A stretch of DNA of 64,000 nucleotides, taken from Rubrivivax sp. (GTDB lineage Bacteria > Pseudomonadota > Gammaproteobacteria > Burkholderiales > Burkholderiaceae_C). This document shows positions 26,001 through 37,196 of this stretch, piece by piece (the stretch's first letter is position 1; every line of letters begins with the position of its first letter). The notes beneath the pieces are model-generated. The model searched no databases, was not told the origin of the DNA, and saw only the letters and a list, made by a program, of their open reading frames with translations. Position numbers and translations under genes: made by a program. The stretch lies in contig JAHBZS010000016.1 of NCBI GenBank assembly GCA_019635285.1, positions 30,265 to 94,264 on the forward strand, given 5' to 3'.

Positions 26001-27437
26001 CTAGCGCCGGCGCGGCAGCTGCGCGGCCTGGTCGCCCAGGTCCCAGTACAGACCGGTCATCAGCTGCAGCGCCTGGCGCGCCACCGGCGCCAGCAGGTGT
26101 TCGTCCGGCGCATGCTGCGAGCAGCCCGGATAGCTGTGCGGCACCCACACCGTGGGCAGCCCCAGGCCTTCGGCGAAGACGTCGTTGGGCAGCGAGCCGC
26201 CCAGGTTGGGCAGCAGCACCGGTTGCAGCCCGGTGCTGCGCGCGATCGATTGCAGCGCGAAGCGCACCCAGGCGTTGTCCGGGTCCAGGCGGGTGGCTTG
26301 CATGACCACCGGCTCGCTTACCTCGATGGCGCCGTAGCCCTGCGCCTGCAGATGCGCCTGCAGGTGCTCGCGCAGCCGCGCGATGTCGGTGCCGACGACG
26401 AAGCGCAACTGCAGCGTGGCCTGCGCATGCGCGGGGATGGCGTTCACCGGATAGTCCGGGTTGCCGGTGCGCATGGCCAGCACCTCCAGCGCATTCCAGG
26501 CCAGCACGCGCTCGATCGGCGTCAGTCCCGGCTCGCCCCAGTCGGCGTCGACGGTGGGGTCGTCCGGCCCGCCGCCCGGCGCCAGGCCGGCCAGCGCGGC
26601 GCGCACGTTGGCCGGCACCGGCGGCGGCCGCAGCCCGGGCACCAGGATGCGGCCGTGGCCGTCCACCAGGCTGGCAATGGCCGCCGCCAGCACCGTGCCG
26701 GGGTTGCGCAGCAGCCCGCCCCAGTTGCCCGAATGGTGGGCGCCGTCGCGCAGCGTCAGCCGCAGGTCGAAGTTGGCGACGCCGCGCGTGCCCAGGAACA
26801 GCGTCGGCGCCTCGGCGCGCAGCCGAGGCCCGTCGGAGGCGATCAGCACGTCGGCGGCCAGCCGCGCGCGCTGCTGCGCGCAGAACTCCGCCAGGCCGGG
26901 CGAGCCGGTTTCTTCGCCGGTCTCGAAGAGCCAGATGGCGTTGAAACCGAGCCGGCCGCCGCGCGCCGCCAACACCTGCGCCAGCGCCGCGAGGTTGATG
27001 CTGTGCTGGCCCTTGTTGTCGGCGGTGCCGCGGCCGTAGAGCCGGTCGCCGTCCTGCGCCAGCGTCCACGGCCCCTGGCCGCGGGTCCACGACGCGTCCT
27101 GGCCGCGCACCACGTCGCCGTGGCCGTACATCAGCACGGTGGGCAGCGCCGGGTCTTCGTGGCGCGTGGCGATCAGGAACGGGCCGCAGCCGGTGCCTTG
27201 CCGCGGGTTGTCGAAGACCTCGCAGCGAAAGCCCAGCGCGCCCAGCGACGCGCCCAGCTCGTCGGCCACGTAGGCGCGCAGCGCGGCGGCCTGCGCCGGG
27301 TCCTGGCTTTCGCTGCGGATGGCGACGCGGCGCGCCAGGTCGCGGGCGAAGGCGCCGCTGTCGAAGTGCGCCGCCGCCGCGGCCAGCGCGGCGTCACGGC
27401 TTGCGGACCGCGCGGGCGCGGCCCCGGGGATGCTCAT
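26001..27437 (-). CDS. M20-family metallopeptidase
   Basis: The 478-residue protein has the M20 di-zinc peptidase pattern: VLMYGHGDVVRGQ (first His), GRGTADNKGQHSINL (bridging Asp), IWLFETGEETGSPGL (catalytic Glu pair) and a C-terminal WVPHSYPGCSQHAPDEHLL (His ligand). A dimerisation domain with FDLRLTLRDGAHHSG lies between. Related enzymes cleave dipeptides, N-acyl amino acids or aminobenzoyl-glutamate. Its ATG overlaps the ABM gene stop by four bases, so it is the last cistron of the long catabolic/transport block. A link to the aromatic substrate of the operon is possible but unproven. Confidence 0.85.
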   Translation of the reverse strand: MSIPGAAPARSASRDAALAAAAAHFDSGAFARDLARRVAIRSESQDPAQAAALRAYVADELGASLGALGFRCEVFDNPRQGTGCGPFLIATRHEDPALPTVLMYGHGDVVRGQDASWTRGQGPWTLAQDGDRLYGRGTADNKGQHSINLAALAQVLAARGGRLGFNAIWLFETGEETGSPGLAEFCAQQRARLAADVLIASDGPRLRAEAPTLFLGTRGVANFDLRLTLRDGAHHSGNWGGLLRNPGTVLAAAIASLVDGHGRILVPGLRPPPVPANVRAALAGLAPGGGPDDPTVDADWGEPGLTPIERVLAWNALEVLAMRTGNPDYPVNAIPAHAQATLQLRFVVGTDIARLREHLQAHLQAQGYGAIEVSEPVVMQATRLDPDNAWVRFALQSIARSTGLQPVLLPNLGGSLPNDVFAEGLGLPTVWVPHSYPGCSQHAPDEHLLAPVARQALQLMTGLYWDLGDQAAQLPRRR

Positions 27438-27736
27438 GCCGACTTGCCCAGCAGCGTGAAGTGCTCGACCACCGGCGGCGCGGCGAAGAAGGGGCCGACG
27501 ATGGCGCGCCACTGCGCAAACAGTGGGCCGCCGCGGAAGGCCACCGTGTGGTCCTCCAGCGTCTCCCAGAAGATCATCAGCAGGTAGCGCTCGGGGCTTT
27601 CGATGCCCTTGTTGACCTTCCAGCCCTTGAAGCCCTGGGCCTGGCTGATGACGGTGCGCAGGCCGCGTTCGATGGCTTCGTCGAATTCGGCCTGGCGGCC
27701 GGGCTGGATGCGGATGTCGGCGACTTCGAGAATCAT
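27434..27736 (-). CDS. Antibiotic biosynthesis monooxygenase (ABM) domain protein
   Basis: The 100-residue protein has the dimeric ferredoxin-like ABM pattern: MILEVADIRIQPGRQAEFDE at the start, FKGWKVNKGIESPERYLLM in the middle and WETLEDHTVAFR near the C-terminus. Family members act as cofactor-free oxygenases or as aromatic-compound-handling accessory proteins. GGAG lies eight bases before the ATG. It sits between livF (13-base gap) and the M20 peptidase (four-base overlap), so it belongs to the same transcript. Function in this pathway is not known. Confidence 0.8.
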   Translation of the reverse strand: MILEVADIRIQPGRQAEFDEAIERGLRTVISQAQGFKGWKVNKGIESPERYLLMIFWETLEDHTVAFRGGPLFAQWRAIVGPFFAAPPVVEHFTLLGKSA

Positions 27737-27749
27737 TGCAGGGCTCCTG

Positions 27750-35581: not shown

Positions 35582-36028
35582 CTACTCCCAGCCGAAGTGG
35601 GCGCGCACGGCGCGGGCGGTCTGGTTGATCGCCGTGATCGGTGCCTGCGGGAACTGCAGCAACTGCGGCGAGCGCACGCCGCCGCCGTTCTGCCCCAGCA
35701 CCGCGATCGAGCAGATGCGCCAGCCGGCGGCCTTGAAGGCCGCCAGGTAGCTTTGCGCGTCGGGAAAGCGCTCGCGATGGTCCGGGTTGGCGCCGGGCGC
35801 CAGGCAGCACAGCACGGCATTGCAGCGCATGCGGGCGGCCTCGGCGATGAAGTCCTCCGGCGCGCAGCGCGTGTCCTGCAACGAGCCCACGCGGGCATAC
35901 AGCCGCAGCAGCGGCTTGCCGCCCAGCGGCTGGATGTCCCGCACGCTGCGGTTGAAGCAGCCGGTCAGGCTGCGCACCACCGACGCCTTGCGCGTGTTCG
36001 GGTTGCCGATGACGATGTAGGCGTCCAC
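35582..36028 (-). CDS. Small protein of unknown function with degenerate P-loop-like start
   Basis: The 148-residue product begins (GTG at 36028) with MDAYIVIGNPNTRKASVVRS, which resembles a GTPase G1 loop (GxPNxGKSS) with the critical Gly replaced by Arg. The remaining sequence has several Cys and hydrophobic strands (RCNAVLCCLAPGANPDH, ICSIAVLGQNGGG) suggestive of an alpha/beta fold, but no G3 or G4 motif is seen. It lies one base after pobA and is followed by the extradiol dioxygenase, so it is co-transcribed. I do not recognise the family. Confidence 0.65.
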   Translation of the reverse strand: MDAYIVIGNPNTRKASVVRSLTGCFNRSVRDIQPLGGKPLLRLYARVGSLQDTRCAPEDFIAEAARMRCNAVLCCLAPGANPDHRERFPDAQSYLAAFKAAGWRICSIAVLGQNGGGVRSPQLLQFPQAPITAINQTARAVRAHFGWE

Positions 36029-36029
36029 G

Positions 36030-37196
36030 CTACAACGCCAGGCCGACGTAGTTCTCGGCCACCACCTGCTGCGCGGCGCGCGAGCCGAACAGATAGTCCA
36101 GTTCGGCGGTCTGCATCTTCGCGCCGAAGGCGCCGTTTTCCGGGAAGCGGTGCATCAGGCTGGTGAACCACCACGAGAAGCGTTCGGCCTTCCACACCCG
36201 CGCCAGCGCACGCTGCGAATACTGCTCGATGCCGTCGTCGCGGCCGCGGTAGTGCTCGGCCAGCGCGCGCGACAGCAGGCCGACGTCGCTGGCCGCCAGG
36301 TTCAGGCCCTTGGCGCCGGTGGGCGGCACGATGTGCGCGGCGTCGCCGGCCAGGAACAGCCGGCCGAAGCGCATCGGCTCGGTGACGAAGCTGCGCAGCG
36401 GCGCGATGCTCTTTTCCAGCGACGCACCGGTGACCAGGTGCTTGGCGCTTTCGGCGGGCAGGCGGCGCTTCAATTCGGCCCAGAAGGCCTCGTCGGTCCA
36501 CTGGCGGATGTCGTCGTCCAGCGCGCACTGCAGGTAGTAGCGGCTGCGCGTCTGGCTGCGCATGCTGCACAGCGCGAAGCCGCGCTCGTGGTTGACGTAG
36601 AGCAGCTCGTGCGCCAGCGGCGGCACGTCGGCCAGCAGCCCCAGCCAGCCGAAGGGGTAGACCTTCTCGAAGGTCTGCAGCGCCGCCGCCGGCACGCTGG
36701 CGCGGCACACGCCGTGGAAGCCGTCGCAGCCGGCGATGAAATCGCACTCGATCTCCTGCGTCTGCCCGTCCTGGCGATAGCGCACGCGCGGCGCGCTGCC
36801 GTCGAAGCCGTGCACGCTGACGTCCTGCGCTTCGTAGACGGTGGGCTGCTGCTGCGCGGTGCGCGCGTCCATCAGGTCGTGCGTCACTTCGGTCTGGCCG
36901 TACACCGTCACGCGCTTGCCGGTCAGGCCGAACAGGTCGATGCGGTGGCGCTGGCCGCCGAAGCACATCTCGAAGCCGTCGTGCGGCAGGCCTTCGGCCC
37001 GCAGGCGGGCGTCCACGCCGGCTTCGGCCAGCAGGTCCACGGTGATCTGCTCCAGCACGCCGGCGCGGATGCGGCCGAGCACGTAGGCCGCGCTGCGCTG
37101 CTCGACGATGACGTTGTGCACGCCGTAGTGGTGCAGCAGCGCACCCAGCAGCAAGCCTGCGGGGCCGGCGCCGACGATGGCTACCTGGGTCTTCAT
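36030..37196 (-). CDS. pobA: 4-hydroxybenzoate 3-monooxygenase
   Basis: The FAD/NADPH enzyme converts 4-hydroxybenzoate to protocatechuate. The 388-residue sequence carries the FAD motif [20 protein letters not shown], the flavin loop [20 protein letters not shown] and substrate residues equivalent to Pseudomonas Tyr201 ([11 protein letters not shown]), Ser212/Arg214 ([12 protein letters not shown]) and Tyr385 (ENYVGLAL). All contact residues I can align are conserved, so 4-hydroxybenzoate is the likely substrate, though 4-aminobenzoate is a known poor substrate of this family. AAGGAGACGGGCGC precedes the ATG. It is the first gene of the catabolic block. No pobR regulator is adjacent. Confidence 0.94.

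Follow-up and report, generated by a model that had tools for sequence, protein, structure and literature searches.

A recurrent composite cluster for aromatic ring cleavage and uptake in a Rubrivivax genome

Several described gene clusters open aromatic rings with parts that recur in the 13-gene block studied here, which fills positions 26001-37196 of a 64,000-nucleotide stretch of Rubrivivax sp. contig JAHBZS010000016.1 (forward-strand positions 30,265 to 94,264; the whole stretch is called the window below). The onb/nba systems of Cupriavidus sp. ST-14 and P. fluorescens KU-7 have in common with the window a 3-hydroxyanthranilate dioxygenase, a decarboxylase and a deaminase; the window adds an extradiol dioxygenase (EDO), a Liv importer and PobA but has no dehydrogenase or lower-pathway genes, whereas the onb cluster is described as also holding a dehydrogenase and OnbGHIJ (PMC5817917). 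The dhb genes of P. reinekei MT1 and the opa genes of Pseudomonas sp. PTH10, as outlined in PMC6362003, share with it a type I extradiol enzyme and a decarboxylase. Their semialdehyde dehydrogenase (HMSDH), tautomerase, hydratase and aldolase find a match in EDO-related loci but not in the window, where the decarboxylase is of the NbaD type and the 3-hydroxyanthranilate 3,4-dioxygenase (HAO) and a RidA protein are present. The pra operon of Paenibacillus sp. JJ-1b, like the window, joins a 4-hydroxybenzoate hydroxylase to an extradiol enzyme, but its set, given as praRABEGFDCHI, leads on through 2-hydroxymuconate (PMC12455638), and the window cluster has no lower-pathway genes of this kind next to it. 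Bordetella sp. 10d, compared by description only, likewise opens an aminohydroxybenzoate ring before a YjgF/RidA-like deamination (as reported in PMC4539516 and PMC6449761), whereas the window HAO matches the 3-hydroxyanthranilate (3-HAA) enzymes. Among titles and abstract openings in the literature we found no description of a cluster joining EDO and HAO, which does not show that none exists.

The window cluster is a real and recurrent composite, built mostly from known modules. It lies in an assembly of 4.9 Mb in 89 contigs that is 94.5% complete, and a profile scan of contigs placed its nearest relatives in Rubrivivax and other Burkholderiales metagenome-assembled genomes (MAGs). The gene order is pobA, p148, EDO, RidA, HAO, ACMSD, LivJ, LivH, LivM, LivG, LivF, an ABM-domain gene and an M20 gene. 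The first-pass annotation had described thirteen same-strand, mostly tightly packed genes, and this holds: 13 of 13 are on the minus strand, and 7 of the 12 junctions are a 4-nt overlap or a gap of at most 13 nt (1, -4, 7, -4, -4, 13, -4), the remaining five being gaps of 66, 44, 115, 123 and 82 nt. The family names it gave are borne out by Pfam and NCBIfam matches (PobA, HAO, M20, RidA, ACMSD, EDO and the Liv genes), and the catalytic residues it called intact are seen in PobA, ACMSD, HAO and EDO, at positions that we presume to be the catalytic ones. Its general reading of an aromatic uptake and ring-cleavage cluster is supported; of its fuller interpretation, the 3-hydroxyanthranilate half is upheld and the protocatechuate half is not. 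The conserved core, EDO-RidA-HAO-ACMSD-LivJHMGF, is made up of these genes:

34643..35515, minus strand: EDO, a type I extradiol (VOC) dioxygenase of 290 aa (Pfam Glyoxalase/BphC_D1)
34245..34646, minus strand: RidA-family deaminase of 133 aa, probable 2-aminomuconate deaminase (PF01042)
33659..34237, minus strand: HAO, 3-hydroxyanthranilate 3,4-dioxygenase of 192 aa (TIGR03037, 233 bits, cut-off 146; Pfam 3-HAO)
32643..33662, minus strand: ACMSD, 2-amino-3-carboxymuconate semialdehyde decarboxylase of 339 aa (Amidohydro_2; structure match 2hbv)
31429..32598, minus strand: LivJ-type periplasmic binding protein (Peripla_BP_6)
30390..31313, minus strand: LivH permease (PF02653), kept in L083, L085 and L086 at 85-93%
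29286..30266, minus strand: LivM permease (PF02653), kept in the same three loci at 69-87%
28543..29289, minus strand: LivG ATPase (PF00005, PF12399), kept in the same three at 76-87%
27750..28460, minus strand: LivF ATPase (PF00005), kept in the same three at 76-86%

Here and below, L numbers denote loci of relatives, G numbers genomes and C numbers places in the window's own genome. Genome contigs were scanned with a profile from a four-sequence EDO alignment, which gave 131 relatives, and the best 80 loci were analysed; identity limits were applied, and the neighbour counts are lower bounds, as many contigs are short. Within 10 kb of EDO, HAO was found in 9 loci, RidA in 8, ACMSD in 6 and LivJ in 8; PobA and ABM were found in 3 each, and M20 and p148 in 1 each. 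HMSDH is near EDO in 26 loci and a 4-hydroxy-2-oxovalerate-type aldolase in 17. The existence of the gene block beyond chance is confirmed by the relatives: L083, a MAG, carries all 13 genes at 85-96% identity, and the order EDO-RidA-HAO recurs in L082 (followed by ACMSD, with no Liv after), in L084 (up to the contig end) and in L085 (EDO-RidA-HAO-ACMSD-LivJHMGF, 69-90% identity), hence in five genomes with the window included. In L086 (10001-16261) EDO and RidA are joined to Liv, and HAO and ACMSD are missing from the place that they hold in L085. EDO and HAO are linked in 9 of the 80 loci in five arrangements (L082-L085; L107/L133; L132; L105; L149), and because HAO is present in only 24 of 299 family genomes, the window's own included, this is much more than chance would give. 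The nine do not count as independent cases, as four of them are near relatives of the window. The cluster offers a testable example of an evolutionary link, made more than once, between two unrelated ring-cleavage enzymes. In trees, the window HAO groups with L082-L085 (support 99/99), its ACMSD with L082, L083 and L085 (97/97) and its LivJ with L083, L085 and L086 (100/98); the RidA tree is weak. PobA, p148, ABM and M20 are lineage-specific neighbours and not part of the core. L107 holds within about 17 kb kynureninase, hydratase, decarboxylase, aldolase, RidA, HAO (only 50% identical to that of the window), ACMSD, EDO, class II aldolase and Liv, as well as a semialdehyde dehydrogenase gene truncated at the locus boundary. 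As a separate HAO-EDO pairing, L149 (8428-10876) has a DapA-like gene, a divergent HAO (43%) and EDO in a row.

Judged by family membership, HAO, ACMSD and RidA are a 3-hydroxyanthranilate module, as the first-pass annotation had proposed, and their closest structures, intact residues and the neighbours of their relatives agree. The closest structure to HAO is 1yfu (271 bits), which we take to be the Cupriavidus enzyme, and eight active-site or cysteine positions, with the roles that we assume for them, are conserved in 25 of 25 aligned rows (L076 and L081, found by tblastn and not called as genes, are excluded from alignment and tree). ACMSD is closest to 2hbv, presumably the Pseudomonas ACMSD, with 508 bits; a second ACMSD group scores 231, and other decarboxylases do not exceed 57. 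Relatives with 63-72% identical HAO, ACMSD and RidA proteins pair the trio with kynureninase or lower-pathway genes, and for RidA the five loci L065, L066, L071, L107 and L133, which carry such genes, reach 64-70% identity. The trio is found in 6 of the 17 other family genomes whose HAO region was fetched (six further HAO genomes were not fetched in full): it stands with HMSDH, hydratase and decarboxylase in L066, L067, L069 and L071, runs ACMSD-HAO-RidA-decarboxylase up to the contig end in L068, and adjoins kynureninase in L065; the other 11 regions are without it. Kynureninase itself is over cut-off in 8 of the 9 genomes searched; its neighbours in the window's own genome are a kynB-like gene of the cyclase family on one side and a tryptophan 2,3-dioxygenase gene, also over cut-off, on the other. 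Of the 11 regions without the trio, the six inspected (L070, L072, L074, L078, L080 and L081) show a different HAO context, in which HAO stands with molybdenum-hydroxylase-type subunits and a DapA-like gene (6/6, named mostly from sequence), mostly also with CoxG- and aspartate-dehydrogenase-like genes; L078, L080 and L081 have a related Liv importer beside them.

EDO very probably starts at 35515 (TTG, 290 aa) and not at 35545, since the gene caller places the start of 12 of 13 homologues at the matching position (30 nt further upstream in L107) and conservation in the alignment of the window with these 13 begins there. H140, H197, E245 and H180 are invariant in the 14 aligned rows, giving an intact 2-His-1-Glu site in which we presume the first three to be metal ligands and H180 the catalytic acid. 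The modelled fold resembles HsaC, BphC and HPCD (TM about 0.7; mean pLDDT 79, the C-terminal 38 residues being unreliable). EDO and the 13 homologues have Phe where HPCD (1f1r) has the Arg of ERGPGRH, which we take to be a carboxylate binder. A class II aldolase of at least 50% identity to the L022 protein lies within 10 kb of EDO in 34 of the 80 loci, and the two of these run against Pfam are both PF00596. In the commonest rich context, exemplified by L022, EDO is accompanied by this aldolase, HMSDH (TIGR03216), hydratase, dmpH-like decarboxylase, tautomerase, acetaldehyde dehydrogenase and aldolase, all scored members being over cut-off (HMSDH, hydratase, acetaldehyde dehydrogenase, aldolase) save the dmpH-like decarboxylase, which is below. 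The window cluster has no class II aldolase, and its decarboxylase is the NbaD-type ACMSD. In P. reinekei, 2,3-dihydroxybenzoate is described as cleaved by the type I enzyme DhbA with the class II aldolase DhbB as decarboxylase, and in strain PTH10 OpaD, a decarboxylase of the metallo-hydrolase superfamily, does DhbB's step (PMC6362003). Because the relatives of EDO often lie near an aldolase of the DhbB class and lack the HPCD Arg, the neighbour genes suggest that its substrate is probably 2,3-dihydroxybenzoate or a similar compound. Such an assignment would improve many annotations: plasmid relatives with at least 55% identity are, where annotated, named only VOC family protein, and the distant plasmid rows of the search carry bphC, hpaD, catechol 2,3-dioxygenase and a few other labels.

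The enzymes that would follow ring opening were searched in nine genomes, of which seven hold the cluster (G000 and G299-G304, counting the reduced L086 and the rearranged L132). The downstream genes had been reported missing from the window, and the dehydrogenase and aldolase were also not found in the rest of its own genome. There, the full L022 dehydrogenase, a control that scores 857 bits on TIGR03216 and is closest to AMSDH, found best matches of 40-42% identity and no AMSDH or HMSDH orthologue (assembly 94.5% complete). A search with the last 193 residues of the semialdehyde dehydrogenase of L107 revealed no HMSDH/AMSDH orthologue in any of the seven cluster genomes (best match in each 40-43%), while the same query gave 99% in G305 and 88% in G306. 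The 4-hydroxy-2-oxovalerate aldolase TIGR03217 is over cut-off in G305 and G306 only, and in 0 of the 7. Seven genomes have kept an upper pathway, yet two textbook enzymes of the lower one were found in none of them. Three places in the window's own genome were considered as its meta lower pathway and rejected: C23 is hpa (HpaE 770 bits, HpaH 437 bits), C12 an orphan hydratase-like gene, and C34, the source of the 42% match above, a phenylacetaldehyde/betaine-type dehydrogenase, whose nearest family is phenylacetaldehyde dehydrogenase and whose TIGR03216 score of 463 bits falls short of the cut-off of 693. The relatives of hydratase and decarboxylase in this genome are HpaH and one orphan. HpaE and HpaH are over cut-off there; HpaE is so in 7 of the 9 genomes, five of them among the seven with the cluster, and in G299 a fragment scoring 581 bits lies where a contig ends. 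At most six of the seven could therefore use an hpa route.

We propose, at a probability of about one half, that the core encodes an importer and two parallel ring-opening branches for ortho-carboxylated aromatics. In the amino branch, whose assignment by family is well supported, HAO would open 3-hydroxyanthranilate to 2-amino-3-carboxymuconate semialdehyde, ACMSD would decarboxylate this product, and RidA would take off the amino group, either following oxidation or instead of it. In the hydroxy branch, which we infer, EDO would open 2,3-dihydroxybenzoate, the oxygen analogue, to 3-carboxy-2-hydroxymuconate semialdehyde, and ACMSD or spontaneous loss of CO2 would yield 2-hydroxymuconate semialdehyde, at which the two branches would therefore meet. 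The Liv importer may bring in one or both substrates, or a precursor. As neither the canonical semialdehyde dehydrogenase nor the 4-hydroxy-2-oxovalerate aldolase turned up, the later steps would use other enzymes; that borrowed hpa enzymes handle the product, with the homoprotocatechuate set as the best candidate, is a guess. More specifically, the locus could be a twin module for the amino and hydroxy versions of one acid, both served by one importer, one decarboxylase and one deaminase; it would have lost its own lower pathway and would pass its products to hpa or another non-canonical route, a picture that we regard as rather doubtful.

Several observations weigh against the two-branch proposal. 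The substrate of EDO is inferred from neighbours and not from sequence comparison with DhbA, OpaC or PraA. That ACMSD serves EDO fits poorly, because in L086 EDO-RidA-Liv stands without HAO or ACMSD in its vicinity and, among the loci bearing ACMSD, class II aldolase occurs only in L107 and L133. RidA proteins are a broad group. Kynurenine 3-monooxygenase was not seen beside the kynureninase set of the window's own genome, a genome-wide search not having been made. Six of the seven cluster genomes are MAGs whose completeness is not stated, and in six the dehydrogenase was sought with the 193-residue piece only. HpaE of G304 stays below cut-off, and the link between HpaE and the cluster is not specific, since HpaE is also found in G305 and G306, which have a normal lower pathway.

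The same enzymes could be arranged around para-substituted acids. PobA would then hydroxylate 4-aminobenzoate to 4-amino-3-hydroxybenzoate, HAO would open this compound, RidA would deaminate the product to 5-carboxy-2-hydroxymuconate semialdehyde, identical to what EDO would make from protocatechuate, ACMSD would decarboxylate both, and the M20 enzyme would free 4-aminobenzoate from a glutamate conjugate. This scheme accounts for RidA, HAO, EDO, PobA and M20 standing together, and Bordetella sp. 10d is reported to open 4-amino-3-hydroxybenzoate and then to deaminate, with YjgF/RidA-like proteins named (PMC4539516, PMC6449761). We nevertheless consider it unlikely, as the window HAO retains the examined active-site residues of the 3-HAA enzymes, relatives adjoin kynureninase (L065, L107), and conservation of the core does not extend to PobA and M20.

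A protocatechuate 2,3-cleavage (Pra) route, which the first-pass annotation had favoured for part of the cluster, would begin with the first of the two genes that precede EDO:

36030..37196, minus strand: pobA paralogue, 4-hydroxybenzoate 3-monooxygenase of 388 aa (TIGR02360, 656 bits, cut-off 539)
35582..36028, minus strand: p148, a family-less protein of 148 aa between PobA and EDO

In that route PobA would make protocatechuate, EDO would be the protocatechuate 2,3-dioxygenase, and ACMSD would decarboxylate 5-carboxy-2-hydroxymuconate semialdehyde. The substrate-site residues of the window PobA, at positions that we presume, are conserved relative to PHBH structures; pobA is upstream of EDO in the window and in L083, and PraA is likewise described as an extradiol enzyme, from a gene of 881 bp (PMC13254512). 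The other evidence makes the Pra route improbable. PobA is within 10 kb of EDO in only 3 of the 80 loci, this linkage is not conserved, and in two of the three, L148 and L152, the genes are about 8-9 kb apart on opposite strands; PobA stands outside the conserved module, and the relatives of EDO often have a class II aldolase nearby (34/80). ACMSD is of the NbaD/2HBV type (508 bits), though PraH itself was not compared, and EDO with its 13 homologues has the Phe described above in place of the HPCD Arg. For comparison, PMC6362003 puts OpaD, a member of the ACMSD superfamily, at just 30% identity with NbaD and 28% with PraH. Neither does the genome need such a route, because it has a second pobA at C50 (695 bits) and protocatechuate 4,5-cleavage genes at C78 (LigA 131 bits, LigB 277 bits, LigK over cut-off). 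No Pra-type lower-pathway genes were found in the cluster, and neither an HMSDH orthologue nor an aldolase over cut-off in the genome (tautomerase was not searched). This case cautions against taking a pobA gene beside an extradiol gene as a sign of protocatechuate 2,3-cleavage.

Further observations concern the protocatechuate genes. pobA is over cut-off in 9 of 9 genomes; a further LigAB-like pair lies at C23 (LigB 203 bits), and in G300 a LigAB-like pair directly follows pobA. The case that the first-pass annotation named as a refutation, with the PobA product used only by the ortho pca pathway, fits poorly: the sole match to the intradiol family PF00775 in the window's own genome is a single small protein at 44 bits (Pfam cut-off 27.3), whereas the best match reaches 108-146 bits in each of seven other genomes (G305 has no match). 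This makes the ortho route unlikely, the score for PcaG/PcaH being uncalibrated. About 7 kb beyond pobA, window positions 44573-47146 hold pcaF (over cut-off) and pcaI/pcaJ-family genes, although the genome yielded no strong intradiol dioxygenase.

Alternatively, the cluster might not serve full catabolism. Ring opening would end in self-cyclised pyridine carboxylates (quinolinate, picolinate, pyridine dicarboxylates), or would detoxify redox-active, iron-binding catechols and 3-HAA. The two lower-pathway enzymes not found in the seven cluster genomes accord with this, and ring-opening semialdehydes are described as cyclising to pyridine carboxylates (PMC10143591, PMC13254512). A five-gene importer suggests feeding, however, and ACMSD and RidA would counteract some pyridine products, so that we hold this explanation to be improbable as well. 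A chance meeting of an aromatic importer operon with unrelated catabolic genes is very improbable, for although PobA, p148, ABM and M20 seldom accompany the rest and REP-like repeats interrupt the Liv genes, the EDO-RidA-HAO order in five genomes and the five arrangements of EDO-HAO linkage argue against it.

That the block forms a single operon is doubtful, given that pobA-p148 is not conserved with the rest and that a promoter-like element precedes EDO:

35544..35572, minus strand: promoter-like site TCGACG-17-TATATT in the p148-EDO gap (promoter scan)

By numbers alone the promoter and terminator scan is near chance (1 found, 0.4 expected). TATATT occurs twice in the 64-kb window with both strands counted, and it lies 34 to 48 nt ahead of the EDO start in the window, L082 and L083; it is absent before EDO in 11 of the 13 relatives examined, L084-L086 among them. 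In L082 the 2.1 kb of contig that precede EDO hold neither pobA nor p148. The sequence suggests that the TATATT element is a predicted promoter for EDO onward in this sub-lineage, and pobA-p148 may be a separate transcription unit. p148 itself gave no Pfam match even at E 10 and no NCBIfam match, and its model is of low confidence (mean pLDDT 45); homologues are found in L083 (86%) and on an Ideonella plasmid (43%; L227, 8998-9444), where the gene adjoins one of a nitrate/sulfonate-type ABC transporter, with phenol hydroxylase genes about 8 kb away.

The two genes at the other end of the cluster, beyond the branched-chain-type permeases and ATPases LivH, LivM, LivG and LivF, are:

27434..27736, minus strand: ABM-domain protein of 100 aa (PF03992, 40.6 bits), kept in L083 (95%) and L082 (86%)
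26001..27437, minus strand: M20 peptidase/deacylase of the PRK07079 subfamily, 478 aa (NF005478, 746 bits, cut-off 330; Peptidase_M20), kept in one of the 80 EDO loci, L083

A REP-like element of about 85 nt is present in the LivJ-LivH gap (31338-31424) and in the LivH-LivM gap (30302-30386), the two copies being 82% alike. Similar copies occur on the own-genome stretches L064, L208, L224 and L028; in L083 the element stands between RidA and HAO, and in L085 after LivH. Not far from the cluster, at window positions 21624-24270, an Lrp-type regulator (named from sequence) lies beside genes for 4-hydroxyphenylpyruvate dioxygenase and phenylalanine 4-monooxygenase, both over cut-off.

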